Shown here: positions 12,399 through 63,661 of the stretch, in pieces
Position numbering within the stretch: the stretch's first letter is position 1
Layout of the letters: each line of letters starts with the position of its first letter
Source of the DNA: a virus
Reading direction: 5' to 3' (one strand)
Virus record (IMG/VR): IMGVR_UViG_3300009109_000001
Span: 94,043 to 158,042 of that record
DNA length: 64,000 nucleotides
Program-made: the position numbers and the translations under genes
The notes under the pieces: generated by a model
Databases searched by the model: none
Seen by the model: only the letters and a program-made list of their open reading frames with translations
Told to the model about the DNA's origin: nothing

Positions 12399-12571
12399 TG
12401 GCAAGTAAAAATATTACAATTATTAAATTAGTATCAACTGCTGGTACCGGGCATTATTATACCACAACCGTTAATAAAAGAAAGATGGGTGGCAATAAAC
12501 TTAAATTAAAAAAGTATGACCCAGTTGTACGCAAACATGTTTTATATGAAGAAAAGAAAATAAGTAAGTAA
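12398..12571 (+). CDS. rpmG: Ribosomal protein bL33
   Basis: The 57-residue protein matches bL33 end to end: [41 protein letters not shown]. It is the Cys-free form, without the zinc-binding CxxC pairs seen in some bL33. bL33 sits near the E site of the 50S subunit. Phage-encoded bL33 is much rarer than bS21. The ATG overlaps the preceding TAA, and the stop is only a few bases ahead of the tmRNA acceptor piece, so the ribosomal protein and the RNA may share a transcript. It may mark or replace host ribosomes (inference). Confidence 0.95.
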
Positions 12572-12575
12572 CTTT

Positions 12576-12638
12576 ATTGTCGTATGATGTAGACAATATG
12601 CATTCTGGACGTGGGTTCGATCCCCACCACCTCCACCA
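12576..12638 (+). ncRNA. ssrA: tmRNA acceptor piece (3' half of mature tmRNA, encoded first)
   Basis: The T arm GTGGG-TTCGATC-CCCAC (12611-12627) is followed by CACCTCC, A and CCA (12628-12638). CACCTCC pairs with the 5' end of the coding piece, GGGGGTG (12831-12837), to give the alanine-type acceptor stem. TGTCGTAT (12578-12585) pairs with ATACG-G-ACGACA (12865-12876) with one bulge to form helix 2. The order acceptor, spacer, coding piece is that of circularly permuted two-piece tmRNA genes of alphaproteobacteria. The exact 5' end is approximate. Confidence 0.92.
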
Positions 12639-37036: not shown

Positions 37037-37119
37037 AATACTACCATATTTTGTTTCCTATATTTATACTATTTGTATGCTAATAATAGTTTTGCTATTA
37101 AGTGAAAGGGATTATAAAC

Positions 37120-37125
37120 TAAATA
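37120..37125 (+). promoter_or_regulatory. Late-promoter-like TAAATA
   Basis: ACTAAATATAC occurs 23 bases ahead of the PrkA gene, with AGGAG at 37136-37140. It suggests late transcription of the PrkA-YeaH-SpoVR operon. Confidence 0.45.
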
Positions 37126-37148: not shown

Positions 37149-39089
37149 ATGGTAAGCAAATTACTTAAAGAGTATTCTTCCAACTACCAAAGTAAAAAAG
37201 AGGTAGAAATAACATTAGAAGCATACTTAACATTATGTAAGAAAGATCCATTGGCTTATGCTACATCTGCTGAACGCATGTTAGCAGCTATCGGAGACCC
37301 AGAACACGTCGATACATCAGAAGATTCAAGATTGTCTCGTATATTCTTGAATAGAACATTAAGAGTTTTCCCAGCATTTAAAGATTTTTATGGACTAGAA
37401 GATACAGTTGAACGAATTGTAGGCTTCTTTAAACATGCCGCACAAGGACTAGAAGAACGCAAGCAGGTATTATATTTGCTTGGTCCAGTTGGCGGTGGTA
37501 AGAGTTCTTTAGCAGAACGACTAAAAGAACTAATGGAAATACACCCAATATATGTTCTTAAAGCAGGCGATACAATTAGTCCTGTGTATGAAAGTCCGTT
37601 ATCATTATTTAACCCAGAAGTATATGGTGACCAACTTGAAAAAGAATATAAAGTTCCAAAACGTTATCTCACAGGCTTGTTAAGTCCGTGGGCAATTAAA
37701 CGTTTGGATGAGTTTGATGGCGATATTACTAAATTTACAGTAGTAAAACTACAGCCTAGCAAATTAAAGCAAATTGCTGTAGTAAAAACAGAACCAGGTG
37801 ATGAAAATAACCAAGATATAAGTGCCCTAGTAGGTAAAACAGACATACGCCAACTAGAATACTTTTCACAACATGACCCAGATTCATATGCATTTAGTGG
37901 TGCATTGTGTAAGGGCAACCAAGGTCTTATGGAGTTTGTGGAAATGTTTAAAGCACCAATTAAGGTATTACATCCACTACTAACTGCTACACAAGAAGGC
38001 AACTACATGGGCACAGAAGGTATTAGTGCTATCCCATTTAGTGGCACAATTTTAGCACATAGTAATGAATCAGAATGGACATCATTTAAAAACAACAAAA
38101 ACAACGAAGCGTTTTTAGATCGTGTATATGTTGTTAAAGTTCCTTATTGCTTGCGTATAGATGAGGAAATTAAGATTTATGATAAGATGTTAACATCTAG
38201 TGGATTAGCGGATCATCCATGTGCGCCGCAAACATTAGATATGCTAGGACAGTATTCAATCTTGAGCAGACTACAAGAGCATGAAAACAGCAACTTGTTT
38301 TCCAAAATGCAAGTGTATAATGGTAAGAATTTAAAGGATACGGATCCGCAAGCAAAAAGTCTACAGGAGTATAAAGATACTGCCGGAGTAGACGAAGGCA
38401 TGTCAGGTTCATCGACACGTTTTGCTTTTAAGATTTTATCTCAGACATTCAACTTTGACACAGCGGAGATAGCCGCTGACCCAGTACATCTAATGTTTGT
38501 ATTGGAACAAGCAATAAAACGCGAGCAGTTTGGTGAGGAAAAAGAAAAGGCACTCATTGCTTTTATTAAAGAGTGGCTTGCACCAAAGTATGCCGATTTT
38601 ATTGGCAATGAAATACAGAAAGCGTATTTAGAAAGTTATAGTGATTATGGACAAAACTTGTTTGATCGCTATATTCAATATGCTGACCATTGGATACAAG
38701 AGATAGATTTTAAGGATCCTGATACAGGCAACCTCTTTAGTCGCGATGTATTAAATGATGAACTAGAGAAAATAGAGAAGCCAGCAGGCATTGCTAATCC
38801 TAAAGACTTTCGTAGTGAAGTAGTTAATTTTGTTTTACGTGCTAAAGCAAAAAACAAAGGTAAAAATCCAAAATGGACAAGTTACGAGAAACTACGTGAG
38901 ATTATAGAGAAGAAAATGTTTGCGTCTACAGAGGAATTACTTCCAATTATTTCCTTTGGTAATAAGCAAAACAAAGATGATCAACAAAAGCATGACGATT
39001 TTGTAGAGCGTATGGAATCAAAAGGCTATACAGAACGTCAAGTGCGGAGACTTGTCGAATGGTATATGAGAACCCAGAAGAGCAGTTAA
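37149..39089 (+). CDS. prkA: PrkA/YeaG serine protein kinase
   Basis: The 646-residue protein is full length for PrkA/YeaG. The N-terminal AAA-like domain has LYLLGPVGGGKSSLAERL (Walker A, about 108-125), then GALCKGNQGLMEFVEMFKAPIKVLHPLL and IPFSGTILAHSNESEW, all hallmarks of PrkA. The C-terminal kinase-type region ends RQVRRLVEWYMRTQ. In E. coli yeaG acts in nitrogen- and acid-stress responses, and in other bacteria it influences sporulation or quiescence. It is first of the three-gene set prkA, yeaH, spoVR, nine bases ahead of yeaH. A phage copy is unusual; it may alter host stress or protease state during infection. Confidence 0.96.
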   Translation: MVSKLLKEYSSNYQSKKEVEITLEAYLTLCKKDPLAYATSAERMLAAIGDPEHVDTSEDSRLSRIFLNRTLRVFPAFKDFYGLEDTVERIVGFFKHAAQGLEERKQVLYLLGPVGGGKSSLAERLKELMEIHPIYVLKAGDTISPVYESPLSLFNPEVYGDQLEKEYKVPKRYLTGLLSPWAIKRLDEFDGDITKFTVVKLQPSKLKQIAVVKTEPGDENNQDISALVGKTDIRQLEYFSQHDPDSYAFSGALCKGNQGLMEFVEMFKAPIKVLHPLLTATQEGNYMGTEGISAIPFSGTILAHSNESEWTSFKNNKNNEAFLDRVYVVKVPYCLRIDEEIKIYDKMLTSSGLADHPCAPQTLDMLGQYSILSRLQEHENSNLFSKMQVYNGKNLKDTDPQAKSLQEYKDTAGVDEGMSGSSTRFAFKILSQTFNFDTAEIAADPVHLMFVLEQAIKREQFGEEKEKALIAFIKEWLAPKYADFIGNEIQKAYLESYSDYGQNLFDRYIQYADHWIQEIDFKDPDTGNLFSRDVLNDELEKIEKPAGIANPKDFRSEVVNFVLRAKAKNKGKNPKWTSYEKLREIIEKKMFASTEELLPIISFGNKQNKDDQQKHDDFVERMESKGYTERQVRRLVEWYMRTQKSS

Positions 39090-39098
39090 GGGTTCAAC

Positions 39099-40487
39099 AT
39101 GACCAAGCATATTATAGATAGGCGACAAAATCCTAAAGGTAAGAATTTATCTAACCGACAGAGATTTATAAAACGCTCTAAAAAGCATCTTAAAGATAGC
39201 ATGGACGAAGCCATGAAGACACGTTCCGTAAGGGACTTAAAGTCTGGTGGCCGTGTTCGTGTGCCTTCTAAAAGTATTAAAGAACCACAGTTTAATTATG
39301 ATCCTAAATCAGGACAGAAAGATTATATACTGCCAGGTAACCAAGAATACTTACAAGGTGATAAAATACGCAAACCATCTTCTGGACAAGGCGGTGGTGG
39401 CGGCCAGGAAGGATCCGATGATGCTTATGGAGAAGATGATTTTGTTTTTTCTATTAATAGAGATGAATTCCTAGATATATTATTTGAAGATTTGGAACTG
39501 CCAAATCTTAGAGAAAAGAAAAAGAAAAGTATAGAGGAATTTACAACTCGTCGTGCTGGATATGTTAATGAGGGCTCACCTAATAACTTAAACCTTGAGC
39601 AAAGTATGATACGCAGTATTGGTAGACGTATTGCTCTTAAAAAGCCAAAAGGGATCCGGCTTAAGGAACTAGAAGCACGATTAGAGGAACTTAAAGAGGA
39701 AAGAAAACCTCTTGTTGTTATTATTGAAAAGTATCCTTATAATAAACAGGGCAGATGTAAAGAAGCACCTTTATTAAAAGCAATTGATGATGAGATTGCA
39801 GAAGTAGAAGCAGAGATTAAAAAAATAAGAGCACGTTACAATGCTATCTCTTTTATTGATCCAATTGATTTAAAGTTTAATAATTTTACTAAAGTTCCAA
39901 ATCCTAAAAATGCCGCTGTAATGTTTTGTATATTGGATGTTTCAATATCAATGCAAGAACGTGAGAAAGATTTAGCAAAACGATTCTTTATTTTATTACA
40001 CTTGTTTCTCAGTATGAAATATGATAAAGTAGATGTAGTGTTTATACGACATCATACTACTGCTAAAGAATGTACTGAGGAAGAATTTTTTACTAGTAAA
40101 GAAAGTGGTGGTACTGTTGTATCAACTGCTTTAGAATTAGCATACGATATTGTTAGAAAAAGATATGATTTGGAATATTGGAATGTTTATGTAAGTCAAG
40201 CAAGTGATGGTGACAACTTTACTACAGATAACCAACAAGTACAAGATGTCATGCAAAATAAATTATTGCCATTAGTTCAGTTTTTTGCTTATGTAAGCAT
40301 TGTAGCACATTCACATCAAGTTAATAATGAAATAGGTACATCAGTAGGTAGTGGATTAGAAAAAATATATCAAGCATTAATGGATACTTTTGATTATGTA
40401 CAAATACGTAGGGTACATGAGCCTAAAGACATATATCCAGTATTTAGAAAGTTCTTTGCGCCAAAAGGAGGAAGTAAAGATGAGTAA
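39099..40487 (+). CDS. yeaH: YeaH/YhbH (DUF444) protein
   Basis: The 462-residue protein is a DUF444 member: IIDRRQNPKGKNLSNRQRFIKR at the N terminus, a Gly-rich linker (SGQGGGGGQEG), FNNFTKVPNPKNAAVMFCILDVSISMQEREKD in the centre (a vWA-like metal site D-x-S-x-S) and the end YPVFRKFFAPKGG. YeaH is the constant genetic partner of PrkA. The central domain probably binds a partner protein through the metal site. It overlaps the SpoVR gene by eight bases. Confidence 0.95.
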   Translation: MTKHIIDRRQNPKGKNLSNRQRFIKRSKKHLKDSMDEAMKTRSVRDLKSGGRVRVPSKSIKEPQFNYDPKSGQKDYILPGNQEYLQGDKIRKPSSGQGGGGGQEGSDDAYGEDDFVFSINRDEFLDILFEDLELPNLREKKKKSIEEFTTRRAGYVNEGSPNNLNLEQSMIRSIGRRIALKKPKGIRLKELEARLEELKEERKPLVVIIEKYPYNKQGRCKEAPLLKAIDDEIAEVEAEIKKIRARYNAISFIDPIDLKFNNFTKVPNPKNAAVMFCILDVSISMQEREKDLAKRFFILLHLFLSMKYDKVDVVFIRHHTTAKECTEEEFFTSKESGGTVVSTALELAYDIVRKRYDLEYWNVYVSQASDGDNFTTDNQQVQDVMQNKLLPLVQFFAYVSIVAHSHQVNNEIGTSVGSGLEKIYQALMDTFDYVQIRRVHEPKDIYPVFRKFFAPKGGSKDE

Positions 40488-42114
40488 AACTTTATATGAG
40501 CCGCAAAGTGATTGGAGTTTTGATCTAATTTCTGAAATATATGACGCATGTGAAGATATAGCAGTTAATGAACTTGGATGTGACTGTTATGTTAATCAAC
40601 TTGAAGTAGTAACGTTTGAACAAATGCTAGATGCTTATGCTAGTATAGGTATGCCATTGTCTTACAATCATTGGAGTAATGGTAAAGCATGGGCACACTA
40701 TGAGAACCAATATAGAAAAGGCAGAACAAGTTTAGCATATGAGTTAGTCATTAATAGTAATCCTTGTATTAATTATTTAATGGAAGAGAATACAATGACT
40801 ACACAAACTCTAGTTATTGCTCACGCCGCATTTGGACATAATCATTTCTTTAAAAATAATTATTTGTTTAAAACATGGACAAGTGCTGACAGTATTATTG
40901 ACTATCTAGTATTTGCTAAAAATTATATACAAAAGTGTGAGGAAAAGTATGGACTTGATGAAGTAGAACTTTTCTTAGATTCCCTACACGCGATACGTAA
41001 TTATGGTATAAACAAGTATAAACGCCCTCATAAATTAAATGCAAAAGCAGAAGCAGATAAGGCACAAGAGCGAGCAACATATTTACGTAAACAAGTAAAT
41101 GAGTTGTGGGACACAACCATTGTTCCAAATAAGAAAGACCAAGAAGAAAAGGAAAAAAGAGTTAGTTTACAAAAGCCAGAAGAAAATTTAATTTACTTTT
41201 TAGAAAAAAATGCACCAAATTTAACTGACTGGCAACGTGAACTGTGTCGTATAGTGCGTAAAATTGCTCAGTATTTTTATCCACAAGGGCAAACAAAAGT
41301 AATGAATGAGGGATTTGCCTGTTTTGTGCATTATTATTCAATGCATAGATTACATGATAAAGGACTAATTACTGACGCCGCAATGTTTGAGTTTTTAAAG
41401 TTACATACTAATGTATTAAATCAACCCACATTTGACAAAAAATGGTATAATGGTATTAACCCTTATTCATTAGGTTTTGCTATGTTTATGGATATTAAAC
41501 GTATGTGTGAGCATCCTACTAAAGAAGATAAGGAATGGTTTCCTGATATTGCTGGTGGTAACTGGAAAGAAATTATTTTAGATGCTGTTGCTAATTACAG
41601 AGATGAAAGTTTTATATTACAATTTTTATCACCAAAAGTAATTAGAGATTTTAAATTATTTCAACTTGGTGATAATAAGTCAGATCCTCATTATGTAGTT
41701 AAAGCAATACATAACAGCTTAGGATATAAAAGCATACGTAAAGAGATGGCACGACAATATGATTATAATTACCGTATACCTGACATACAAGTAGTTGATT
41801 ATGATCATGATGACAAGCGTTCGCTATTATTGCATCATTATAAAGGACCAAGTGGTAGAGAATTGTCAAAGACAACAACTGTTGAAGTATTAAATTATAT
41901 TGCTTATATTTGGGGTTATGAAGTACAATTAGATGTGTATAGTAGGCAAGCAAAATTTGTTGATGGTCAACACGTAGGCGAACCATTTCAGAAAGTGAAT
42001 GGTTATAAATCCACTTCTACTGATGGGACACCACCGCCACCAGAAAAACCCCCAGCGAAGAATTTTGGTTATTGGGGAATGATGTTAACATCAGATGACT
42101 CTAGTACTATTTAA
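40480..42114 (+). CDS. spoVR: SpoVR family protein
   Basis: From ATG 40480 (GGAGGAAGTAAAG upstream) the protein is 544 residues, normal for SpoVR. Typical stretches are WSFDLISEIYDACEDIAVNELG, MPLSYNHWSNGKAW, GRTSLAYELVINSNPCINYLME, AHAAFGHNHFFKNN and NEGFACFVHYYSMHRL. The conserved His and Glu residues suggest a metal site. SpoVR is needed for normal spore cortex formation in Bacillus and, with PrkA and YeaH, is part of an envelope or stress set in many bacteria. Here the order matches cellular operons. It overlaps the radical SAM gene by 20 bases. Confidence 0.95.
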   Translation: MSKTLYEPQSDWSFDLISEIYDACEDIAVNELGCDCYVNQLEVVTFEQMLDAYASIGMPLSYNHWSNGKAWAHYENQYRKGRTSLAYELVINSNPCINYLMEENTMTTQTLVIAHAAFGHNHFFKNNYLFKTWTSADSIIDYLVFAKNYIQKCEEKYGLDEVELFLDSLHAIRNYGINKYKRPHKLNAKAEADKAQERATYLRKQVNELWDTTIVPNKKDQEEKEKRVSLQKPEENLIYFLEKNAPNLTDWQRELCRIVRKIAQYFYPQGQTKVMNEGFACFVHYYSMHRLHDKGLITDAAMFEFLKLHTNVLNQPTFDKKWYNGINPYSLGFAMFMDIKRMCEHPTKEDKEWFPDIAGGNWKEIILDAVANYRDESFILQFLSPKVIRDFKLFQLGDNKSDPHYVVKAIHNSLGYKSIRKEMARQYDYNYRIPDIQVVDYDHDDKRSLLLHHYKGPSGRELSKTTTVEVLNYIAYIWGYEVQLDVYSRQAKFVDGQHVGEPFQKVNGYKSTSTDGTPPPPEKPPAKNFGYWGMMLTSDDSSTI

Positions 42115-43036
42115 CGTAGGTTGGCATTTAGAAATAACAAGACGCTGTCCTCTAGCATGTCCTGCTTGTGACAGAACAACAGATTTCGACACTATGGTAG
42201 TTGATTCTAAACGTGATATAGATGTCACCAATTTGAAAACCTTTTTTCCTAAGAACAAAGTTTCTAAAATAAAATATATTTTTATGCAAGGAAATCTTGG
42301 AGACCCTATATACCATCCTCAATTTCATGATATAAGTGAGCATTTTTTTGATACAGAAAATTTAAATGTCACTACCAATGGTATGCAAACCAAAAACTTT
42401 TGGCATAGAGTACTGGAAACTTGGCCTAAGGAATCTTCGATAACTTTAAGCATTGATGGATTACAAGACACAAATCATATGTATAGGGTTAATAGTAACT
42501 GGGGTAAAATACAAGGATTATTTGATCTAATTGCAAAAAAGAAACACAACTGTGAAATAGAATGGAAATATATTGTATTCGAACACAACCATCATCAAGT
42601 TGAAGAAGCAAAAAGTTTGGCTAAAAAAATTGGTATTGATAGATTTAGGATACAACGCACTAGAAGACTAGATCCGAAGTTGGATATAAAATCCTATGAT
42701 AATCCCGAATGGTTTAAAAAGATTAACGTAGAATATGAAAATGCTCTAAGTCCTTTTTGCTATACAGGAGATATGCACTATATAACAGCGTTTGGTGATT
42801 ATTATCCTTGCTGTTGGTTTGAAGGAAGATACAATGGTAGTAGATGGAAACCTTTGAATATAAAAAACAATACAGTACAGTCTTTTGAAAAACACTTTAA
42901 AAATTTTACACATGAACTAGAAGATTTCGAAACCTGTCCAGATGTATGTAAAAAATTTTGTAGAAAAATAAAAAATAATGGCAAGGACATGCAGGTACCT
43001 AATTCACAACTAAACAGAAGTATAATTGATCTATAA
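42095..43036 (+). CDS. Radical SAM protein downstream of SpoVR
   Basis: The 313-residue protein has C-P-L-A-C-P-A-C (Cys 18, 22, 25) for the 4Fe-4S cluster and T-L-S-I-D-G-L for the later SAM strand. The C-terminal Cys (P-C-C-W-F, C-P-D-V-C-K-K-F-C) resemble SPASM or twitch auxiliary-cluster ligands, as in peptide- and sugar-modifying enzymes. It overlaps spoVR by 20 bases, so it is the fourth gene of that operon and may modify one of its proteins or a common target (inference). Confidence 0.88.
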   Translation: MTLVLFNVGWHLEITRRCPLACPACDRTTDFDTMVVDSKRDIDVTNLKTFFPKNKVSKIKYIFMQGNLGDPIYHPQFHDISEHFFDTENLNVTTNGMQTKNFWHRVLETWPKESSITLSIDGLQDTNHMYRVNSNWGKIQGLFDLIAKKKHNCEIEWKYIVFEHNHHQVEEAKSLAKKIGIDRFRIQRTRRLDPKLDIKSYDNPEWFKKINVEYENALSPFCYTGDMHYITAFGDYYPCCWFEGRYNGSRWKPLNIKNNTVQSFEKHFKNFTHELEDFETCPDVCKKFCRKIKNNGKDMQVPNSQLNRSIIDL

Positions 43037-43110: not shown

Positions 43111-45210
43111 TTGTCTTTGAGTAATTATAGAAATATTGGTATCTTCGCGCATGTAGACGCAGGTAAAACTACGACTACTGAGAGGATCCTTAAGCTCACA
43201 GGAAAGATACACAAAATTGGTGAGGTACATGATGGCGCCGCAACCACAGACTTTATGGAGCAAGAGCAAGAGCGAGGCATTACAATACAGAGTGCCGCGA
43301 CTACTTGCTACTGGAACGATCACCAATTAAACATCATCGACACCCCTGGGCACGTAGACTTCACTATTGAAGTCTATCGTTCCCTTAAGGTGTTAGATGG
43401 TGGTGTAGGTGTATTTTGTGCTAGTGGTGGTGTAGAGCCACAGTCAGAAACTAACTGGCGTTATGCTAACGATAGTGAAGTAGCACGTATTATATACATC
43501 AATAAAATGGATAGAGTTGGTGCTGATTTTAATCGTGTTGTAGCACAAATAAGAACGCGGCTTGGAGCAAAGCCGTTAGTTATGACATATCCAATTGGAA
43601 CGGAAGATAACTTTGTGGGTATAGTTGATATACTTACACAAAAGGCTTGGATATGGTCAGATCCTACTGACCCAACTTCTTACACTATAACTGATATCCC
43701 AGAAGATAAAGTGCCTAGTGTGCAACTTGGTGACAAATACACATATAAAGAATTAGCAAAACAATATTATGATAATTTAGTCGAAACAGTTGTTGAGCAA
43801 GATGATGAAGTTATGATGCAATGGATGGATGATCCAGAAGGCATTAGCGAAGAAGATCTTAAAATGTGCATACGCAAAGGCACAATTAATAACGATTTCT
43901 TTCCAACATACTGCGGCAGTTCATTTAAGAACAAAGGCGTGCAAAACGTCTTAAATGCAGTAGTAGATTACTTGCCAGATCCAACTGAGGTTGATCCACA
44001 ACCGGAAGTTGATGAGAAAGGCGTAGAGACAGGTGAAGTTGCTACAGTAGATTCTAATAAGTCATTGCGAGCACTTGCATTTAAAATAATGGAAGACAAA
44101 TATGGCGCACTAACATTTACACGCATTTACTCAGGCAAGTTAAAGAAAGGCGACTCAATATACAATAGCACAAATGGTAAAACAGAACGTGTTGGGCGTA
44201 TATTGGAAATGCATGCCGACTCGCGTGAGGAATTGGATAGTGCTGAAGCAGGTGACATTGTTGCATTGCTTGGTATGAAACAAGTGCAAACAGGTCATAC
44301 ATTGTGTGATAAAAAGAATATAGCAATACTTGAGCCAATGGTATTTCCAGATCCAGTTATTAGTATTGCAGTTGAACCAAAGACACAGGGTGACATGGAT
44401 AAGTTAGGAACTGCTATTGGGAAAATGATAGCAGAGGATCCTTCCTTCCACGTAGAGACAGATCAAGAGAGCGGGCAAACAATACTTAAAGGTATGGGCG
44501 AGTTGCATTTAGATGTTAAGTGTGATATACTAAAACGCACATATGGCGTAGAAGTAAGCATAGGTAAACCACAAGTAGCATATAGGGAAACTATTACTAA
44601 AACAGTTAGTGATAAGTTTGTTCATAAAAAGCAATCAGGTGGTGCTGGACAGTTTGCTGACATTGAATATACTGTTGAGCCTCTTGAAGCAGGAGAGGGA
44701 TTCCAATTTGAAAGTAAAGTAGTTGGAGGCAATGTCCCACGAGAGTTTTGGCCCGCAGTAGAAAAGGGATTTGAACAATCTAGTGAATCTGGTATACTTG
44801 CTAATTATCCAATGTTAGATTATAAAGTGACATTAACAGATGGTTCTAGTCATGCAGTAGATAGTAGTGCGGTGGCATTTGAGTTAGCGGCACGTGGTGC
44901 GTTTAGACAAACAATGGCTAAAGCCGGCCCACAATTATTAGAACCAATTATGAAACTTGACGTAATTTCCCCAGCGGATAAAGTAGGTGATGTTATAGGT
45001 GATATAAATAGGCGTAGAGGCATGATACACAATCAAGAAATGACTGGTGTAACAGTTCGTATATTCGCAGAAGCACCAATTGGTGAAATGTTTGGATATA
45101 TAGGAGACTTACGTAGTCAAACAAGTGGTCGTGGTCAATTTAGTATGGAATTTAGTCATTATGCGCCATGTCCTAGCAATATTACTGAGGTTATCGTAAA
45201 GAAAACTTAA
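43111..45210 (+). CDS. fusA: Translation elongation factor G
   Basis: This is a 699-residue full-length EF-G starting at TTG (GGAG at 43099-43102). G1 is AHVDAGKTT (13-21), G3 DTPGHVDF (77-84), G4 NKMD (131-134). It also has the switch T-x-x-D-x-x-x-Q-E-x-E-R-G-I-T-I-Q, the domain IV region [11 protein letters not shown] and the end [19 protein letters not shown]. It should catalyse GTP-driven translocation after peptide bond formation, and may also act in recycling. A complete EF-G is a rare phage gene; none of the domains is missing. It may favour phage mRNAs or escape a host modification of EF-G (inference). Confidence 0.97.
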
Positions 45211-55786: not shown

Positions 55787-55873
55787 GCTCCCATGGTGGA
55801 ATTGGTATACACAACAGACTTAAAATCTGTCGGCGAAAACGCCTTGCTGGTTCGAGTCCAGCTGGGAGCACCA
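55787..55873 (+). tRNA. tRNA-Leu (UAA)
   Basis: Acceptor GCTCCCA/TGGGAGC, TGGTGGAATTGGTATACA D arm, anticodon loop CTTAAAA, long variable arm, encoded CCA. Confidence 0.96.
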
Positions 55874-55875
55874 AT

Positions 55876-55952
55876 AGAGGGGTGTAGTGTTAATGGTAGC
55901 ACGGCGGTCTCCAAAACCGCAAGTCAGGGTTCAAATCCTTGCACCTCTGCCA
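55876..55952 (+). tRNA. tRNA-Trp (CCA)
   Basis: Anticodon stem GCGGT/ACCGC with loop CTCCAAA, T arm CAGGG-TTCAAAT-CCTTG, encoded CCA. The acceptor AGAGGGG/CACCTCT has one G-A mismatch at pair 6. Confidence 0.9.
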
Positions 55953-55959
55953 AACTGAT

Positions 55960-56304
55960 ATGAAAAGAATACTAACATTATATTTCACGTATAAAGGACT
56001 CAGTGGTTTTGAGGTTGATCAATACGTGCCATTTACTACTGCGGTGGTAAATGATGATGAGGAATACGAAAGAACACAAAATTGGCTTGCTACTATTTTA
56101 GACGCTCGTCTTAAGTGTGATCAAGATATTTCAAGTTTTGTTATAACTGAGATGGAAGAAACCGAAGAAGAAACCGCAAAGCAAGAAGAAAGCCTTGGTG
56201 CTTTTATTGAGACAAAAAAGAAAACAATCCCTAAACCTGAAGGTAACATAGTTACCGTAGATTTTGGAAAGAAAGATGGACCCGACGACACAAAAGATAA
56301 TTGA
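55960..56304 (+). CDS. Acidic protein of unknown function
   Basis: From ATG 55960 the protein is 114 residues. The first 60 residues are folded-looking (ILTLYFTYKGLSGFEVDQYVPF), and a highly acidic, Lys-containing tail follows. It overlaps the SWIM-type gene by 29 bases. Unknown function. Confidence 0.6.
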   Translation: MKRILTLYFTYKGLSGFEVDQYVPFTTAVVNDDEEYERTQNWLATILDARLKCDQDISSFVITEMEETEEETAKQEESLGAFIETKKKTIPKPEGNIVTVDFGKKDGPDDTKDN

Positions 56305-56536
56305 TCATTACAGAGCCATCAGTAAAAAGATGATGGACAATGTAGCGGCAAGTCAAGGAGATTTGATATTTGCGGCAGGCCAGGCTAAAGTAATACCACC
56401 TGAGTTAGTTGCAACATATGAATCAGGATCAGTTCAAGGTCTTATGTACAAAGTATATAAGGATTGGAAGGACAATTTAACTTGTAATTGTCCGGGTTTT
56501 GTTTACAGGAAAAAGTGTAAGCATATAAGCGGTTGA
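56276..56536 (+). CDS. SWIM-type zinc-finger protein
   Basis: From ATG 56276 the 86-residue protein has L-T-C-N-C-P-G-F-V-Y-R-K-K-C-K-H-I, a C-x-C...C-x-H SWIM-type zinc site, at its C terminus. The N-terminal helix is soluble. SWIM proteins often bind DNA or proteins in repair or transcription. It is cut close after the zinc site, so a truncated version is possible. Confidence 0.72.
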   Translation: MDPTTQKIIDHYRAISKKMMDNVAASQGDLIFAAGQAKVIPPELVATYESGSVQGLMYKVYKDWKDNLTCNCPGFVYRKKCKHISG

Positions 56537-56540
56537 TTAT

Positions 56541-56735
56541 ATGCTTGACAGGATGAGCAAAATGCAGTATCATAATAGTATGAAGAACCCTCGCCGTAAG
56601 ACGAGATTCGCCCGTGTTCTGTTTGAACGCGATAACCCTTACTCTCAGAAAGTTGAGCGTAAGAAAACCGCTTATACCCGTAAAAGGAAGCATAAACCCG
56701 AGTATGAGCAAGAGATAGGAGACCATTATGTCTGA
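56541..56735 (+). CDS. Small very basic protein
   Basis: The reading frame gives 64 residues from ATG 56541 or 51 from ATG 56580 (MKNPRRKTRFARVLFERD). I favour the later start because a promoter-like TTGACA (56545-56550), 17-base spacer and TATCAT (56568-56573) lie six bases ahead of it. The protein is almost half Lys/Arg and probably binds RNA or DNA. It overlaps the next gene by eight bases. Confidence 0.55.
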   Translation: MLDRMSKMQYHNSMKNPRRKTRFARVLFERDNPYSQKVERKKTAYTRKRKHKPEYEQEIGDHYV

Positions 56736-57117
56736 TCAACAGATTATCAGTAGTGTTGGCACAGTTGATGCAATGAAATTGGCTGAGGCAAGGATAAAAG
56801 AGGAACAGTCGCATTACCCGAGCATTCAAGAAGTTGGTGAAGTAGTACGATGGGTTGGAGATCCGCCAGACAAAGACGGAGAGTCGTTATATAGTGGTTC
56901 ATTTCGTTGGATGTTTACTGATATTGCTCGGTGGCAGAGAAAAGTAAACCCAGGTGAAAGTTATATTATGGTCGAGAGTGCTCTTGAAGAGACTCGCTTT
57001 CCGACTTGGGGTGAAGCAGTTGATTATTTGACTGCTGAAGACAATTTTCACGCCAAACGTTACTATCAAGCGGCTGTTGAAGTAGAATTAATGGGTGATA
57101 ATGACGAGGATGAATGA
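56728..57117 (+). CDS. Protein of unknown function
   Basis: The 129-residue acidic protein (GTVDAMKLAEARIKEEQ, GSFRWMFTDIARWQRKVNPGESYIM) has no known motif. It overlaps the next small gene by eight bases. It is the last clear member of the higher-GC block. Confidence 0.6.
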   Translation: MSDQQIISSVGTVDAMKLAEARIKEEQSHYPSIQEVGEVVRWVGDPPDKDGESLYSGSFRWMFTDIARWQRKVNPGESYIMVESALEETRFPTWGEAVDYLTAEDNFHAKRYYQAAVEVELMGDNDEDE

Positions 57118-57271
57118 CTTATTTGATAAGTACGATGTAGTAGCTGATATGGTTGTTGTGTTTGGTGCTGACAAAGTGCTAGAAGCAATGGCTCATTATT
57201 TCAGTGAAAAGGAAATCGACGAATTACATAGTTTTATATGTGACGAGTACAATAAAAATCTTATGGGGTAG
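57110..57271 (+). CDS. Small acidic protein (53 aa)
   Basis: The 53-residue helical protein (DLFDKYDVVADMVVVFGADKVL) starts inside the previous gene by eight bases and ends three bases before the metalloprotease-like gene. Unknown function. Confidence 0.55.
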   Translation: MNDLFDKYDVVADMVVVFGADKVLEAMAHYFSEKEIDELHSFICDEYNKNLMG

Positions 57272-57274
57272 GTC

Positions 57275-57784
57275 ATGATTATAACCACATATGGTTATAA
57301 AACACAGAGCAAAAGGTTTAGAACTTTGCTAGAGAATTCTGCAGAGTATTATGCCCAGAAGATGATGAGGTCTGATTTGTGTGCAAACATACATTTGGAC
57401 ATTCTTGTAACGAAGGATTTAGCAAAAAAAGAAGGCGTAAAACAGATATATGGTTATTGCCATATAACAGACTATAGGTTATCTCGACCACGTGAATTTG
57501 AGATTGAGTTAGATGCTAAAAAGCGTATAACCAAAATGTTGCTAACGTTGGCACATGAAATGACGCATTTAAAGCAGTTTGCCAGGCGACAATTGCGATA
57601 TTATGACAATGGTAGCACAAAGTGGAAAAGTGAAACATTTGGTCATAAGAAAGAAAAGAAAATTGGTCACTATAAACTTCCGTGGGAAGTTGAGGCCTAT
57701 AAGAAAGAGAAGGAATTGTTTCTAGATTTGGTAAATAATACTGATATACTAGACGATTATATGGATGGAATTAAGAGAGATTAA
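57275..57784 (+). CDS. Zinc metalloprotease-like protein (HEMTH motif)
   Basis: The 169-residue protein contains L-A-H-E-M-T-H-L-K-Q-F, an H-E-x-x-H zinc site in a predicted helix, with a later W-E-V-E-A-Y that could supply the third ligand Glu. This layout resembles SprT-like and other small zincins. No signal peptide, so it would act in the cytoplasm. It may process phage or host proteins. It overlaps the next gene by 20 bases. Confidence 0.75.
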   Translation: MIITTYGYKTQSKRFRTLLENSAEYYAQKMMRSDLCANIHLDILVTKDLAKKEGVKQIYGYCHITDYRLSRPREFEIELDAKKRITKMLLTLAHEMTHLKQFARRQLRYYDNGSTKWKSETFGHKKEKKIGHYKLPWEVEAYKKEKELFLDLVNNTDILDDYMDGIKRD

Positions 57785-58016
57785 TTTAGAATATCTCTTT
57801 ATGTTAACTCGACAACAACAGGCAGAACAACTTTTTAATAAGTGGTACTTATGCAAAATAAATGACAAATACTTTGCTGGGCAGTTTGGCTATCCTAAGG
57901 GAGCATTTGGTGGTGGCGGTGGTGTAATTCATTTTAGTCCAGTGCCGTGGAATCCAAGTGGTCATACTTTAACAGTAATGACAGGCTGGCAAGGTGTTTG
58001 GGAAATACTCAACTAA
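57765..58016 (+). CDS. Small protein of unknown function
   Basis: The 83-residue protein (or 71 from ATG 57801, MLTRQQQAEQLF) has a Gly-rich loop FGGGGGVIHF flanked by aromatic strands, and W-Y-L-C-K-I-N-D-K-Y-F-A-G-Q. The sequence is compact and strand-rich. No family recognised. Confidence 0.55.
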   Translation: MELREINLEYLFMLTRQQQAEQLFNKWYLCKINDKYFAGQFGYPKGAFGGGGGVIHFSPVPWNPSGHTLTVMTGWQGVWEILN

Positions 58017-58038
58017 TAACAAGAGACTATTGAATAAA

Positions 58039-58989
58039 ATGAAACTCATTTCAGGTAACTCGAACCTGGAGTTGGCTAAACGAATATCCCAGTTTGCCGG
58101 TGTACCGCTAGTTAAGGCAAACATAGGGAGGTTTGCTGACGGCGAGGTTAGAGCAGAAATTCACGAAAACATCAGAGGTAAAGACGCATTTGTAATACAA
58201 AGTACTAGCACACCAGTCAATGATAATGTAATGGAATTACTAGTTATGATTGACGCTCTTAAAAGAGCAAGTGCTAGGCGCATAACAGCAGTATTGCCAT
58301 ACTTTGGTTACGCAAGACAAGACAGAAAAACAATGAGTAGGGCACCAATTAGTGCTAAACTACTCGCTGATTTAATAACAACGGCAGGCGCAAATAGAGT
58401 ATTAACAGTAGATCTACACGCAGGCCAAATCCAAGGATTTTTTAATATCCCAGTAGATACTTTGATAGCACGACCTATCCTAGTCAATGATATACGGAAA
58501 AGAATAGAAACAGACAATCTTGTATTCGTCAGTCCAGACGCCGGCGGTACAGAACGAGCAAGAAGTTATGCTAAAAAGTTCGATACAGAGATTGCTGTAA
58601 TCGATAAAAGACGCCCAGAACCGGGCGCAAGTGAGGTTATGAATGTTGTTGGTGACGTTAAAGATAAACAATGTATTATCGTTGACGACATCATAGACAG
58701 TGGGGGCACCCTAGCCAACGCGGCCACGGCTTTGTTGGAACACGGTGCTATTAAAGTAAGAGCATATATTACGCACGGAGTACTGACGCCTAAGGCAGAC
58801 GACAAAATTGGTAATAGCGATTTAACTGAGTTAATAGTAACAGATTCTATCAAAATTAACAGAGAATCGGGTATTTCTCAACTCAGGTATGTAACAATTG
58901 CTCCGCTAATTGGACGAGCGATAGTAAATGTTCATAATGAAGAAAGCGTGAGTAATTTACTCATCGAGGATAATTGGGATATATTGTGA
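58039..58989 (+). CDS. prs: Ribose-phosphate pyrophosphokinase (PRPP synthetase)
   Basis: From ATG 58039 the 316-residue protein is full length. It begins MKLISGNSNLELAK, then VQ-type SPDAGG...RARSYAKKF, DLHAGQIQGFF, and the PRPP-binding loop CIIVDDIIDSGGTLANAA. It makes 5-phosphoribosyl-1-pyrophosphate from ribose-5-phosphate and ATP, feeding nucleotide and NAD synthesis. Phage Prs genes often pair with NadV; none is in this window. The gene lies between small unknown genes and tRNA clusters. Confidence 0.97.
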   Translation: MKLISGNSNLELAKRISQFAGVPLVKANIGRFADGEVRAEIHENIRGKDAFVIQSTSTPVNDNVMELLVMIDALKRASARRITAVLPYFGYARQDRKTMSRAPISAKLLADLITTAGANRVLTVDLHAGQIQGFFNIPVDTLIARPILVNDIRKRIETDNLVFVSPDAGGTERARSYAKKFDTEIAVIDKRRPEPGASEVMNVVGDVKDKQCIIVDDIIDSGGTLANAATALLEHGAIKVRAYITHGVLTPKADDKIGNSDLTELIVTDSIKINRESGISQLRYVTIAPLIGRAIVNVHNEESVSNLLIEDNWDIL

Positions 58990-59000
58990 GGAAATCAAAA

Positions 59001-59459
59001 ATGGGAGAGTTATTAGCAGTTGTTATGGTTGCGTGTTTGGCAACAGGCTGTGCAAACATGACTCGAGAAGAGTCGGGTAATGTTATAGGTGCATTAATAG
59101 GTGGCGCATTAGCATATGAACTTGGCAAGGACAGTTCAAATAAAGAAATTTGGGTTGCTACTGGTATAATTGGCGGTGCCCTTGCAGGCGGCCATTATGC
59201 TGTATTAACAGAGCCAAGTCAAAGAATGAATGCTACTAATATGCATACAACACTTGAAAGCATACCTGACAATGCACAAACTAAATGGATTAATCCAAAT
59301 ACAAATGAATCTGGTACCATGACAGTTATGAGAACTAATAACAATAATGGAACCCCATGTAGAGAGTTTACTCAAACGATCTATGTTGGTGGTAAAGCAG
59401 TTCAAGGTTATGGCACAGCATGCCGTCAAGCAGACGGTTCTTGGAAAATCGTACAATAA
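59001..59459 (+). CDS. Surface-antigen-like glycine-zipper lipoprotein
   Basis: From ATG 59001 the 152-residue protein has a lipoprotein signal with lipobox LATGC (Cys 15). A glycine-zipper segment follows (NVIGALIGGALAYELG, IIGGALAGGHYA), then a C-terminal beta domain with R-E-F-T-Q-T-I-Y-V-G-G and G-T-A-C-R-Q-A-D-G-S-W-K-I-V. That is the pattern of rickettsial 17-kDa surface-antigen-like lipoproteins. It probably sits in the periplasm or outer membrane. An alphaproteobacterial origin is suggested. Confidence 0.8.
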   Translation: MGELLAVVMVACLATGCANMTREESGNVIGALIGGALAYELGKDSSNKEIWVATGIIGGALAGGHYAVLTEPSQRMNATNMHTTLESIPDNAQTKWINPNTNESGTMTVMRTNNNNGTPCREFTQTIYVGGKAVQGYGTACRQADGSWKIVQ

Positions 59460-59467
59460 TTAACAAC

Positions 59468-59544
59468 GCACCCATCGTCTAGTAGGCCTAGGACACCGCC
59501 CTTTCACGGCGGCAACACCGGTTCGAATCCGGTTGGGTGTACCA
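59468..59544 (+). tRNA. tRNA-Glu (UUC)
   Basis: Acceptor GCACCCA/TGGGTGT, anticodon stem CCGCC/GGCGG with loop CTTTCAC, encoded CCA. Confidence 0.96.
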
Positions 59545-59557
59545 AAAGGGAAACAAA

Positions 59558-59833
59558 ATGATAGTAGATGTATATGAAAAAGCAGAAAGAAAAGCACAGA
59601 GTCTTATTAGTAAAGTTGCTAATGCTGATAAAGCAAAGTTAAAAGGTGTTGCTCGGCGAGTGTATCTTGAAGGATTTGCTAGTTTGAAAAACTGTGAAAA
59701 AGTTGCTCAAAATGGTAATCAGGGCAGAGGATTTCATATTGCCAAAGTAGTAAATCAGGAATTTGCTGAGAAAGAAAAAGAGAATGAAAAGAAGAAAAAA
59801 CGAAAAAGAGGTAAGAAAAAACAGGAAAAATAA
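59558..59833 (+). CDS. Basic protein with Lys-rich tail
   Basis: From ATG 59558 the 91-residue protein has a helical body (KAERKAQSLISKVANADK) and a very Lys/Glu-rich tail (KENEKKKKRKRGKKKQEK). Nucleic acid binding is likely. Its TAA ends directly at the first base of tRNA-Pro, so it is transcribed inside the tRNA array. Confidence 0.65.
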   Translation: MIVDVYEKAERKAQSLISKVANADKAKLKGVARRVYLEGFASLKNCEKVAQNGNQGRGFHIAKVVNQEFAEKEKENEKKKKRKRGKKKQEK

Positions 59834-59910
59834 CGGGGATTAGTTCAGTCTGGTAGAATACTCGCTTTGGGAGCGAGATGTCGCAGGTTCAAATCCTGCA
59901 TCCCCGACCA
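59834..59910 (+). tRNA. tRNA-Pro (UGG)
   Basis: Acceptor CGGGGAT/ATCCCCG, anticodon stem CTCGC/GCGAG with loop TTTGGGA, encoded CCA. Confidence 0.96.
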
Positions 59911-59913
59911 GAT

Positions 59914-59987
59914 TGGGACATAGTGTAACGGTAGCACTACAGATTTTGATTCTGTCAGTTGGGGTTCGAATCCCTGTGTCCCAGCCA
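59914..59987 (+). tRNA. tRNA-Gln (UUG)
   Basis: Acceptor TGGGACA/TGTCCCA, anticodon stem ACAGA/TCTGT with loop TTTTGAT, encoded CCA. Confidence 0.95.
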
Positions 59988-59989
59988 AT

Positions 59990-60065
59990 GGGCCTGTAAC
60001 TCAGCGGTGAGAGTGTCGGTCTTATATGCCGATGGTCGTTGGTTCGAATCCAACCAGGCCTACCA
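59990..60065 (+). tRNA. tRNA-Ile (UAU)
   Basis: Acceptor GGGCCTG/CAGGCCT, anticodon stem TCGGT/GCCGA with loop CTTATAT. Anticodon UAU reads AUA directly, without needing lysidine modification. Encoded CCA. Confidence 0.92.
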
Positions 60066-60074
60066 ATAATTATT

Positions 60075-60413
60075 ATGAGTGAATGGATTAATTTTAAATT
60101 TATATCTGTTGAGCCTGCTAAAATTAAAGTTAAATTTAATGATAAAGCAGTAGAAAATACTTCAGAGTATTTTATAGATGGTAATAAGACTATTTGGTTG
60201 GAAATTCCATATAGTATTACTGAAAATCATGGTATGAATATAATTGGGTTTAAATTTAATAACTTTGTTATTTTAGAAACTGTACAATTGTGTGGTATTG
60301 ATTATTTCATAACTGATGATAGATTAGAATCTTTTGTAGAAATAAAGGAAAATTCAATAGAGTATTATTTGCCATGTCCATTTATAGACTGGTGGGAAAA
60401 GACATTTAACTAA
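60075..60413 (+). CDS. Beta-rich protein, paralogue family member C
   Basis: From ATG 60075 the 112-residue protein starts WINFKFISVEPAKIKVKF and ends P-F-I-D-W-W-E-K-T-F-N. The pattern matches 50207 and 51893. It lies inside the tRNA cluster, transcribed in the same direction. No function known. Confidence 0.55.
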   Translation: MSEWINFKFISVEPAKIKVKFNDKAVENTSEYFIDGNKTIWLEIPYSITENHGMNIIGFKFNNFVILETVQLCGIDYFITDDRLESFVEIKENSIEYYLPCPFIDWWEKTFN

Positions 60414-60416
60414 ATA
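60411..60416 (+). promoter_or_regulatory. Late-promoter-like TAAATA
   Basis: AACTAAATATTT at the end of the beta-rich gene, seven bases ahead of tRNA-Thr; candidate late start for the four-tRNA run. Confidence 0.4.
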
Positions 60417-60423
60417 TTTACAT

Positions 60424-60499
60424 GCCCGGGTAGCTCAGTTGGCAGAGCAGCTGATTTGTAATCAGCAGGTCGGAAGTTCGAATCTTCTCCCGGGCTCCA
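60424..60499 (+). tRNA. tRNA-Thr (UGU)
   Basis: Acceptor GCCCGGG/CCCGGGC, anticodon stem GCTGA/TCAGC with loop TTTGTAA, encoded CCA. Confidence 0.96.
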
Positions 60500-60504
60500 A
60501 TTTG

Positions 60505-60580
60505 GGGGCTGTAGCTCAGTTGGGAGAGCGCCTCCCTTGCACGGAGGAGGTCGCAGGTTCGACCCCTGTCAGCTCCACCA
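60505..60580 (+). tRNA. tRNA-Ala (UGC)
   Basis: Acceptor GGGGCTG/CAGCTCC with the G3-U70 identity pair, anticodon stem CCTCC/GGAGG with loop CTTGCAC, encoded CCA. Confidence 0.96.
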
Positions 60581-60583
60581 GAT

Positions 60584-60658
60584 GGGTCCTTAGCTCAGTG
60601 GGAGAGCAACGCCTTTACACGGCGTGGGTCGTAGGTTCAAATCCTACAGGACCCACCA
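60584..60658 (+). tRNA. tRNA-Val (UAC)
   Basis: Acceptor GGGTCCT/AGGACCC, anticodon stem ACGCC/GGCGT with loop TTTACAC, encoded CCA. Confidence 0.96.
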
Positions 60659-60663
60659 GATTT

Positions 60664-60738
60664 TCCCCGGTGGCGCAGTGGTAGCGCAGAAGACTGTTAA
60701 TCTTTTGGTCGTAGGTTCGAATCCTTCCCGGGGAGCCA
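60664..60738 (+). tRNA. tRNA-Asn (GUU), canonical
   Basis: Acceptor TCCCCGG/CCGGGGA, anticodon stem GAAGA/TCTTT with loop CTGTTAA (normal U33), short variable loop, encoded CCA. It is the ordinary counterpart of the odd GUU tRNA at 5099. Confidence 0.94.
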
Positions 60739-60745
60739 ATTTATT

Positions 60746-61165
60746 ATGAAAATTCACAATATTTTAAGTGTTCAATACCCCTTTAGTATGTTACGTATAG
60801 AATTGGATGATATTCCTGCGAAGTATAAGAAATATAAAAATAGTTATTATGTAAAATTATTGCAACCTTGCAATGTTAAAATATTTTTTGAACCGTGGAA
60901 AATAGAACCATTAATAAGAATAGATAATCATCTATTGAATTATGCGTTAGCAGAAATAAATTGTTATGATCATATGTTTGAGTTTTTTTGGGATAATGAC
61001 TTTTATGATAGATACTTTAGTAATATTATAAAGTTTAAATTGAAATCCCGTAATATAACAGATATTAATAATTTGGATTATGATTTGTTTATAGGATATA
61101 ATAACGCACATGAAAACATAGTGCGTAAAATTTATGAAGAAATTTCTATTTGTAAGTCTTCCTAA
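60746..61165 (+). CDS. Beta-rich protein, paralogue family member D
   Basis: The 139-residue protein has strands (FSMLRIELDDIPAKYK, CNVKIFFEPWKIEPLIRI) and an aromatic helical C-terminal part (MFEFFWDNDFYDRYF). It looks related to the three beta-rich proteins above, though more distantly. It overlaps the B12-type radical SAM gene by 32 bases, so it is co-translated with it. Confidence 0.5.
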   Translation: MKIHNILSVQYPFSMLRIELDDIPAKYKKYKNSYYVKLLQPCNVKIFFEPWKIEPLIRIDNHLLNYALAEINCYDHMFEFFWDNDFYDRYFSNIIKFKLKSRNITDINNLDYDLFIGYNNAHENIVRKIYEEISICKSS

Positions 61166-62564
61166 ACATGACTTATCTCCTAGTGCCGCAATAGGTGCAT
61201 TAAATGGAGTTGCATTAAATTTTAATTGTGAAACAGAAATTATTGATTTTTCTTCTATAATTAGGTATAATTTAACTGATGAAGAATTTGAAGATTTAGA
61301 TAATTGGTTAATGTTTATTAAAGAGGATATTAGTAATACAATAGTGCAAAAAATATGCAGTTTGTGGTCTGAAACAGTAGAGAAGAAACAATTAAATTTT
61401 GATTATGTTTGTATAAGTGTATTTACTTATTGGAGTCTTAATATAGCGAGATTATTATTAGAATATCATAATAGGATTCCTAGAACAACACAAATTATTG
61501 TAGGAGGGTGTGGTTGTTCTAGTGAATTTCCAGACACTAGAATACGTTTTAGTGCATGGTGTGAAGATTTAGTAGATGGTATATGTTTAGAACAAGATGG
61601 TGAACAATATATAGCAAATATTATTAATGCACAGGTTGACTATAATAATGACATAAGTTTATATCCAATACCAAATTATAATGGTTTTGATTTTAATAAT
61701 TATGATACTAACAAAATATATATAACTGGTAGTAAAGGATGTGTTAGGAATTGTACATTTTGTGATGTTGCGGCGTTATGGCCAAAGTTTAGATATAGGA
61801 AAGCAACAAATTTAGTACAAGAAATTAAAGAGCAATTTTACAACTATGGTACAACTATATTTGATTTTACTGATAGTTTAATAAATGGTAGTGTAAGTAA
61901 TTTTTATAAATTTAATTGTTTACTTGCAGAAGAAAAAGAAAAAGATAAATCTCTAAAAGATATAAGATATACTGGTCAAGCAATATGTAGACCTAGAAAT
62001 CAAATGCCCCCTTCTCATTATGAAGCAATGTATTATGGTGGGTGTGATCAAGTTACTATTGGTATAGAGAGTTTTAGTCAAGATGTTCGTTATCATATGA
62101 AAAAGAAATTTAGTAATACAGATATTGACTATCATATAGAACAGAGTAGTTATTATGATATAAGCAATATTTGGTTAATGATAGTAGGATATCCGACAGA
62201 AACGATAAAAGATCATGAAGAGAATTTAAAAGCACTTGATAGATATGCAAAGTATGCGAAAAATGGCACATTAGAACTTATTCATTGGGGTTATACAATG
62301 ATATTTTTGGAGGATACTCCAATAACAACAATAAAATATATGAAGGAACTAGAAATATATAATGATGATACTTTAATTTCACAAGGAAATTTAGGAGGGT
62401 TCTATACATGGGGGTCATATTTAAATCCAACAAATACATTGCGAGAAAGAATAAGACGTAGAGTGGAATTACATGAAAAAAGTATAGAGTTAGGATATTC
62501 ACAACCACGAGTTAAACAAGAATTAAATTCACTATTAAAGATTGCAGAGCAAATACATGGATAA
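61134..62564 (+). CDS. B12-binding-type radical SAM protein
   Basis: The 476-residue protein has an N-terminal Rossmann-like region (FLFVSLPKHDLSPSAAIGALNG, IIVGGCGCSS) as in cobalamin-binding domains. The radical SAM motif C-V-R-N-C-T-F-C (Cys 203, 207, 210) follows, then FDFTDSLING, QVTIGIESF and IVGYPTET, typical of B12-dependent class B enzymes. The D-x-H-x-x-G cobalamin ligand motif is not obvious, so cobalamin may not be bound. Possible roles are methylation or rearrangement of a natural-product or RNA base. It overlaps the genes on both sides. Confidence 0.85.
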   Translation: MKKFLFVSLPKHDLSPSAAIGALNGVALNFNCETEIIDFSSIIRYNLTDEEFEDLDNWLMFIKEDISNTIVQKICSLWSETVEKKQLNFDYVCISVFTYWSLNIARLLLEYHNRIPRTTQIIVGGCGCSSEFPDTRIRFSAWCEDLVDGICLEQDGEQYIANIINAQVDYNNDISLYPIPNYNGFDFNNYDTNKIYITGSKGCVRNCTFCDVAALWPKFRYRKATNLVQEIKEQFYNYGTTIFDFTDSLINGSVSNFYKFNCLLAEEKEKDKSLKDIRYTGQAICRPRNQMPPSHYEAMYYGGCDQVTIGIESFSQDVRYHMKKKFSNTDIDYHIEQSSYYDISNIWLMIVGYPTETIKDHEENLKALDRYAKYAKNGTLELIHWGYTMIFLEDTPITTIKYMKELEIYNDDTLISQGNLGGFYTWGSYLNPTNTLRERIRRRVELHEKSIELGYSQPRVKQELNSLLKIAEQIHG

Positions 62565-63516
62565 GATAAGAGGATATGATTTTCATCAAGACAAAACATT
62601 TCTTGGTGAAAAATTAACTACCAATAATATTTTTAAATCTAATTTTGAATTATTTGACGAAATTACTGATGAGCAAATACCTAAATTACAGCAATCTAAT
62701 ATATTAATAACGTTTGGATGTAGTTGGACGTGGGGTATAGGTTCTAGTTATACTGAAAATATTAAAAATGCAGATGATCTTGAAACTAGTATATTAATTA
62801 ATGAGGATTATAATAACTGGAATGATGTTTATAGTTATAGGGGTCTTGTAACAAACAAGTATAATTTTACAAATTTAAACTTTTCAAAGCCAGGGTCTAG
62901 TAATCAAAAACAATTTAGATTTGCAAGAGAATTTTTCACTAATACTAAAAATATTAATTTATTAAAACAAGCAAAAAATGTTATAATAATGTGGGGTATT
63001 ACAAGTACCGCAAGAACTGAATTTTGGTATAATGAAACAAATAAATTTGAAAGTGTTGTATTTAATAATAATGAAGAAGGACACATACCAACAGGGTTTG
63101 GACTAAAACGCAAAACTAATTTAGTAAGTCATAATGATACACATGATGTAGTTAGGGTATTAATATTAGATTTATATAATCATGAAATAGAAGTCAAAAA
63201 ACTTGCAGAAGATATGCTTATATGGAATGATTTTTTTAAAAATAATAATTTTAAAAACTTATGGTTTGATACATTTAACACTCATAAATATCCCTTGACA
63301 ATAGAAAATTTAATAGAAGGCGATTTAATGACTTTTCTAGCAAATCAAATTACTAAAACTTATCATAGAAGTATATGGAAGAAAGATGATACAAGAATAG
63401 ATAAGTTAATTAAAGAGAAATTAGTTAATCCGTTTAGTTTCCATCCAACACAGAAAGGTCATAAAAAAATAGCACATAGATTAAGTCCTTATATTGAAAA
63501 TATATTGGAGCGGTAG
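62557..63516 (+). CDS. SGNH/GDSL-hydrolase-like protein
   Basis: From ATG 62557 the 319-residue protein has ILITFGCSWTWGIGSSY (the GDSL-like nucleophile Ser loop), LNFSKPGSSNQ (block with Gly/Asn) and F-H-P-T-Q-K-G-H near the end (catalytic Asp/His region, here H-P-T-x-x-G-H). SGNH enzymes remove acyl or acetyl groups from glycans or lipids. From memory, large phages carry relatives. The stop lies inside tRNA-Asp, so the last codons overlap the tRNA gene. Confidence 0.75.
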   Translation: MDKIRGYDFHQDKTFLGEKLTTNNIFKSNFELFDEITDEQIPKLQQSNILITFGCSWTWGIGSSYTENIKNADDLETSILINEDYNNWNDVYSYRGLVTNKYNFTNLNFSKPGSSNQKQFRFAREFFTNTKNINLLKQAKNVIIMWGITSTARTEFWYNETNKFESVVFNNNEEGHIPTGFGLKRKTNLVSHNDTHDVVRVLILDLYNHEIEVKKLAEDMLIWNDFFKNNNFKNLWFDTFNTHKYPLTIENLIEGDLMTFLANQITKTYHRSIWKKDDTRIDKLIKEKLVNPFSFHPTQKGHKKIAHRLSPYIENILER

Positions 63517-63583
63517 TTCAGTTGGTTAGAATACCGGCCTGTCACGCCGGTGGTCGCGAGTTCGAGTCTCGTCCGCTCCGCCA
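63507..63583 (+). tRNA. tRNA-Asp (GUC)
   Basis: Acceptor GGAGCGG/CCGCTCC, anticodon stem CCGGC/GCCGG with loop CTGTCAC, encoded CCA. Its first ten bases encode the end of the SGNH-like protein (stop at 63514-63516). Confidence 0.96.
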
Positions 63584-63586
63584 CAC

Positions 63587-63661
63587 GCGGGTATCGTATA
63601 ATGGTTATTACAGTGCGTTGCCAACGCATAGATGAGAGTTCGATTCTCTCTACCCGCTCCA
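63587..63661 (+). tRNA. tRNA-Gly (GCC)
   Basis: Acceptor GCGGGTA/TACCCGC, anticodon stem GTGCG/CGCAT with loop TTGCCAA, encoded CCA. Confidence 0.95.

Follow-up and report, generated by a model that had tools for sequence, protein, structure and literature searches.

Do three genes that lie side by side on a viral contig form an intact copy of the bacterial prkA-yeaH-spoVR operon, and what might a phage gain from carrying it? The joint function of PrkA, YeaH, and SpoVR is poorly defined in bacteria. The genes lie in a 64,000-nucleotide stretch (bases 94043-158042 of the 158,042-bp IMG/VR record IMGVR_UViG_3300009109_000001, classed as viral by IMG/VR), which was analysed as a whole and is called the window here (Table 1). 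The original prediction, made from the letters of the window, was that three full-length genes in cellular order and with tight spacing are carried by a lytic phage and change host physiology in a way useful to infection. It saw the main grounds for doubt in a cellular contig joined by error and in the loss of key residues from all three proteins.

Table 1. Coordinates of the cassette and of other features in the window.
Feature	Position	Strand	Remarks
prkA (yeaG-type)	37149..39089	+	646 aa; AAA+ ATPase domain and PrkA C-terminal kinase-like domain
yeaH (DUF444)	39099..40487	+	462 aa; C-terminal von Willebrand A (vWA) domain; N-terminal part of low confidence (AlphaFold2)
spoVR (ycgB-type)	40480..42114	+	544 aa from ATG 40480
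CTAAATA, possible T4-late-like phage promoter element	37119..37125	+	putative; 23 nt before prkA
Radical-SAM gene	42095..43036		overlaps the end of spoVR
EF-G gene	43111..45210		full length
Predicted tmRNA gene	12099..12638		another tmRNA prediction overlaps this one; tag peptide is unusual
Twelve-tRNA cluster	55787..63661		region also holds the next feature
Ribose-phosphate pyrophosphokinase gene	57994..58989		

All three reading frames are unbroken. The match of PrkA to its families was complete (Pfam AAA_PrkA, PF08298, 1-358 of 358; PrkA_C, PF06798, 2-255 of 255), YeaH matched DUF444 (PF04285) over 1-416 of 418 positions, and SpoVR matched PF04293 over 1-404 of 407 together with SpoVR_C (PF24755). 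Each protein also exceeded the cut-off of its NCBIfam equivalog: PRK15455 for PrkA (1194 bits, cut-off 576), PRK05325.1-2 for YeaH (536 bits, cut-off 396), and PRK11767 for SpoVR (736 bits, cut-off 679). The genes are adjacent on one strand in the order of the cellular operon, with a 9-nt gap between prkA and yeaH and an 8-nt overlap between the yeaH stop and spoVR. We place the start of spoVR at its ATG, which is preceded by an AGGAGG site, in preference to the listed TTG at 40390, which is too early. Family coverage, equivalog scores, and spacing thus confirm the predicted full length, order, and tight packing.

Key residues have not been lost. Among alignment columns that are at least 98% fixed in bacteria, PrkA retains 227 of 233, YeaH 70 of 74, and SpoVR 93 of 98. 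PrkA is 68% identical to Enterobacter YeaG, and in the alignment of the two its K118 (Walker A), R234, and K428 correspond to K116, R232, and K426, the residues that E. coli YeaG needs in vivo together with both its AAA+ and its kinase-like domain (PMC4664914). The metal-site motif of the YeaH vWA domain, DxSxS...T...D, is intact, with D280, S282, S284, T339, and D370 invariant. SpoVR has the invariant residues H115-x4-H120, E277, and H284 (numbered from the ATG start), and these conserved His and Glu residues look like a candidate metal site. Comparison with a 322-kb relative gave dN/dS values of 0.055 for PrkA, 0.095 for YeaH, and 0.091 for SpoVR; the cassette genes are under purifying selection. 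The retained fixed residues and the low dN/dS rule out degenerate genes.

The record that carries the cassette also encodes a T4-type capsid protein gp23 (E 5e-98) and a T4-type portal protein gp20 (E 5e-112), the latter above the family cut-off in 13 cassette records. The prediction of a phage was therefore correct: the source is a large, T4-like tailed phage. The other half of that claim, that the phage is lytic, we would call likely, as no tyrosine integrase (PF00589) was found in the source record or in eight relatives, all of them possibly incomplete. An assembly chimera or cellular contamination is an extremely improbable source of the genes. In other phage contigs, whose PrkA is 92-97% identical, a homologue of the 215-aa gene to the left, the cassette, and EF-G follow one another, and gene order is kept across the cassette junctions in contigs L003, L006, L007, and L011. 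Since the same neighbours recur in independent contigs, the junctions are real. A 184-row PrkA tree places the window in a 41-row clade made up entirely of phages (local support 95). What speaks for contamination is that a few IMG/VR matches to PrkA (L071, L076, and L140) nest in bacterial clades; these three are probably bacterial contigs filed as viral. Short of read-level data, the hallmark genes, the shared junctions, and the phage-only clade rule out a chimera, and the concern about a cellular contig joined by error does not hold.

Many other large phages carry this set, and on this ground we conclude that the cassette is real, selected for, and widespread among them. IMG/VR scans yielded 121 relatives of PrkA and 111 of SpoVR, from which the best 80 of each were retained. 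Among the best 80 of the 121, YeaH and then SpoVR followed PrkA in 70 of 70 distinct genes, whatever the neighbours; this count required at least 3.6 kb of downstream sequence and left out three contigs that grouped with bacteria. The search of phage genomes for the triple, which the original prediction had proposed, was therefore positive. Under strict clustering of 54 phage loci, PrkA was present in 54, YeaH in 54, and SpoVR in 51, and any other family in at most 12; the flanks vary and the cassette is constant. In the phage set only these three genes are always found together, which is strong genetic evidence for one working unit. In close kin a 534-bp insert lies between prkA and yeaH (L003:11939-12472), and by eye its protein resembles a free-standing homing endonuclease, with a His-rich N-terminus and repeated NUMOD-like motifs.

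Records bearing the cassette together with a capsid or portal hallmark occur in seven or more clades of the PrkA tree, and the contigs searched for some other clades (e.g., L077/L078) held no such hallmark. The hallmark search with phrog_9 was uninformative, this being a nameless family that bacteria match too. Only 16 of 50,697 deposited phage records had a PrkA match, namely Thermus phages, four huge metagenomic phages, and one lambdoid record. The lambdoid record, Enterobacter phage LAU1 (L239, MN688132), was rejected as a further example: its first genes, right at the edge, are a yeaG and a yeaH of host type, which suggests a bacterial flank left in the deposited phage genome. Phages carrying these genes had thus been sequenced before, and the deposited records and the IMG/VR relatives make the window a further instance and not a unique find. 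In the open-licence literature we found no paper describing PrkA-YeaH-SpoVR as a phage module.

Pairwise distances of PrkA, YeaH, and SpoVR correlate at 0.84-0.91 across 63 phages, as expected for genes that travel together. In a 94-row, outgroup-rooted PrkA tree, several deep phage clades surround two proteobacterial ones, one alpha and one gamma/beta. The outgroup of this tree sits on a very long branch, the bacterial rows of named origin are all Pseudomonadota, and a single phage clade was not rejected (AU p 0.10). Because proteobacterial clades sit among phage clades, we tentatively entertain, as a possibility with the odds against it, that large phages have kept an old three-part machine as a self-contained host-control unit through most of its Proteobacteria history, and that the whole unit has been exchanged between phages and bacteria, possibly also from phage to bacterium.

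We then considered when the genes might be expressed and where the unit ends. Within the window, CTAAATA shows a 7.9-fold enrichment at 8-60 nt before ORFs, and it also precedes prkA in L003, L006, L007, L011, and L042. The most enriched upstream heptamer in the window is ATAAATA (11.5-fold), and seven of the eight window copies of TATAAATA are non-coding, most of them just upstream of ORFs. By their sequence and position, TATAAATA and related heptamers are putative T4-type late promoters. If CTAAATA is a late promoter, the cassette products would act late, which would suit upkeep of the infected cell more than a takeover early on. EF-G scores 928 bits against the TIGR00484 equivalog (cut-off 659), is 82-91% identical to the copies in related phages, and has TATAAATA 27 nt before its start; EF-G has been reported in huge phages (PMC7162821). 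We do not count it as a cassette member, as only some kin have it close by and a separate TATAAATA site precedes it. The gene for a radical-SAM protein was likewise set aside: the window shares it only with L002, a twin contig of 54.6 kb that is 100% identical, and the relatives at 97% lack it at this position.

What might the three proteins do? The reading we favour, at a probability of about 0.5, is that the cassette encodes an ATP-driven AAA+/vWA remodelling complex with SpoVR, made during infection to alter host physiology. PrkA would form the ATP-driven AAA+ ring, on which YeaH would dock via its metal-site vWA domain and present or regulate clients, as vWA proteins do with MoxR-type rings; SpoVR would be the third part, facing the client or RNA. 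Made in infection, such a complex would remodel host (or phage) assemblies and leave the cell damped and stress-tolerant yet productive through a long infection. We favour this reading because purified B. anthracis PrkA oligomerises with ATP (PMC13001217), because the AlphaFold2 model of YeaH has a vWA fold (top PDB match the MIDAS domain of the AAA+ protein MDN1, E 1.3e-6), because a vWA domain plugs the AAA+ ring in structures of NorQ/NorD (PMC9976466), and because Bacillus SpoVR crosslinks RNA in vivo (PMC12456014). The vWA analogy is one of fold and gene pairing only, since PrkA is not a MoxR protein. The SpoVR model had no match among solved structures (PDB) at E below 0.001, and a sequence search found no solved relative; direct evidence for a PrkA-YeaH-SpoVR complex was not found for any organism. 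Also against this reading, E. coli has its SpoVR homologue, ycgB, at a distance from yeaGH, and a starvation-like host state is not obviously a benefit to a virus. In its favour, E. coli deletions of yeaG, yeaH, or both have a similar phenotype (PMC4664914).

The kinase label of PrkA is doubtful, as the purified B. anthracis protein had negligible kinase and protease activity (PMC13001217). For this reason phosphoproteomics may be an unsuitable assay for the cassette, although the in vivo work on YeaG still implicates the kinase-like domain. As to the predicted benefit, conservation of the cassette across many phage clades, with purifying selection, argues for a useful role in infection, and that part of the original prediction stands. 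The effect on host physiology is a projection from the roles of the genes in hosts, where yeaG/yeaH act in nitrogen starvation in E. coli (PMC4664914) and a role in sporulation and osmotic stress is reported for Bacillus (PMC13001217).

These host roles also invite a narrower explanation, in which the module imposes a stationary-phase or nitrogen-starved programme and slows competing metabolism for the phage. It would fit the failure of E. coli yeaG mutants to damp metabolism in nitrogen starvation, with less rpoS mRNA (PMC4664914), and the induction of the bacterial operon by many stresses. Such mimicry is plausible by analogy with host genetics, but the phage sequence has no starvation-specific feature, and the possible promoter before prkA is of a late type and would act after the time when host reprogramming is needed; we regard it as possible but doubtful. 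Another candidate role is that of a chaperone dedicated to the phage's own proteins, needed late in infection to build or recycle a complex that is the phage's own or has been modified by it. The late-type motif before prkA would fit such a role, as would the carriage of all three parts, as though the phage did not rely on the copies of its host. Bacteria, however, have these three proteins too, with identical residues at the fixed positions, which makes a cellular or general client probable and a chaperone of this kind unlikely.

The crosslinking of RNA by Bacillus SpoVR (PMC12456014), and the position of EF-G after the cassette in close kin of the window, could instead point to a role in translation, which an RNA-binding SpoVR and the ATPase would tune together with the phage EF-G, tRNAs, and tmRNA. 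EF-G is near the cassette in only 6 of 54 loci, however, and in the window it has its own TATAAATA site, which makes this role improbable. We give still less credence to counter-defence, whereby the module would lower toxin-antitoxin activity and so block abortive infection: yeaG does lower mqsRA and dinJ-yafQ transcripts in nitrogen-starved E. coli (PMC4664914), but this effect may be indirect, and none of the three proteins is a PADLOC defence family, the one PADLOC match among the three being to IetA, weak (E 0.002) and confined to a 41-residue stretch containing the Walker A motif. The remodelling complex remains our preferred reading. Large phages likely have in this set a module for host physiology, whose members are usually annotated apart as a "kinase" and a "sporulation protein"; its phage versions can be transferred to a laboratory host as one block.

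One of the nearest known counterparts is the prkA-yeaH-spoVR operon of bacteria (in E. coli, yeaGH and ycgB), to which all three proteins are alike at the equivalog level. The gene order was the same in 62 of 63 proteobacterial loci tested. The phage cassettes are tighter than the bacterial operon (median gaps of 12 and about -7 nt versus 23 and about 11), and the phage copies group in separate clades and have phage genes around them. Among isolates, Thermus phages phiYS40 and phiLo encode all three components within a few kb, annotated in their records as SpoVR, a "serine kinase" (PrkA), and a vWA-like protein. Their PrkA is only 25-28% identical and the order differs (vWA, SpoVR, an extra gene in phiYS40, PrkA), and they are probably a distant, separate acquisition. 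A 617-aa BFVD protein that matches the window SpoVR model (E 1.3e-10) has the length of phiLo SpoVR and, judging from this only, may be that protein. The lytic Ralstonia jumbo phage RsoM2USA encodes PrkA (ORF30) and SpoVR (ORF28) about 1.35 kb apart, SpoVR being placed by its authors under replication, recombination and repair (PMC8504454). The space between them fits a YeaH gene, and since ORF29 is unnamed in the paper's text (PMC8504454), the triple in this phage is a supposition. Huge phages LR745206, LR756502, and LR756504 have all three genes, with PrkA 58-62% identical; SpoVR is about 240 kb distant in LR756502 and, in LR756504, less than 3 kb from YeaH and matched in two pieces. The MoxR AAA+/vWA pairs RavA-ViaA and NorQ-NorD likewise encode an AAA+ ATPase with a vWA partner, and RavA-ViaA is also reported to be linked to persistence (PMC10585395). 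Unlike these pairs, the cassette has a PrkA that matches PF08298 and no MoxR family, and it adds an unrelated third component, SpoVR.
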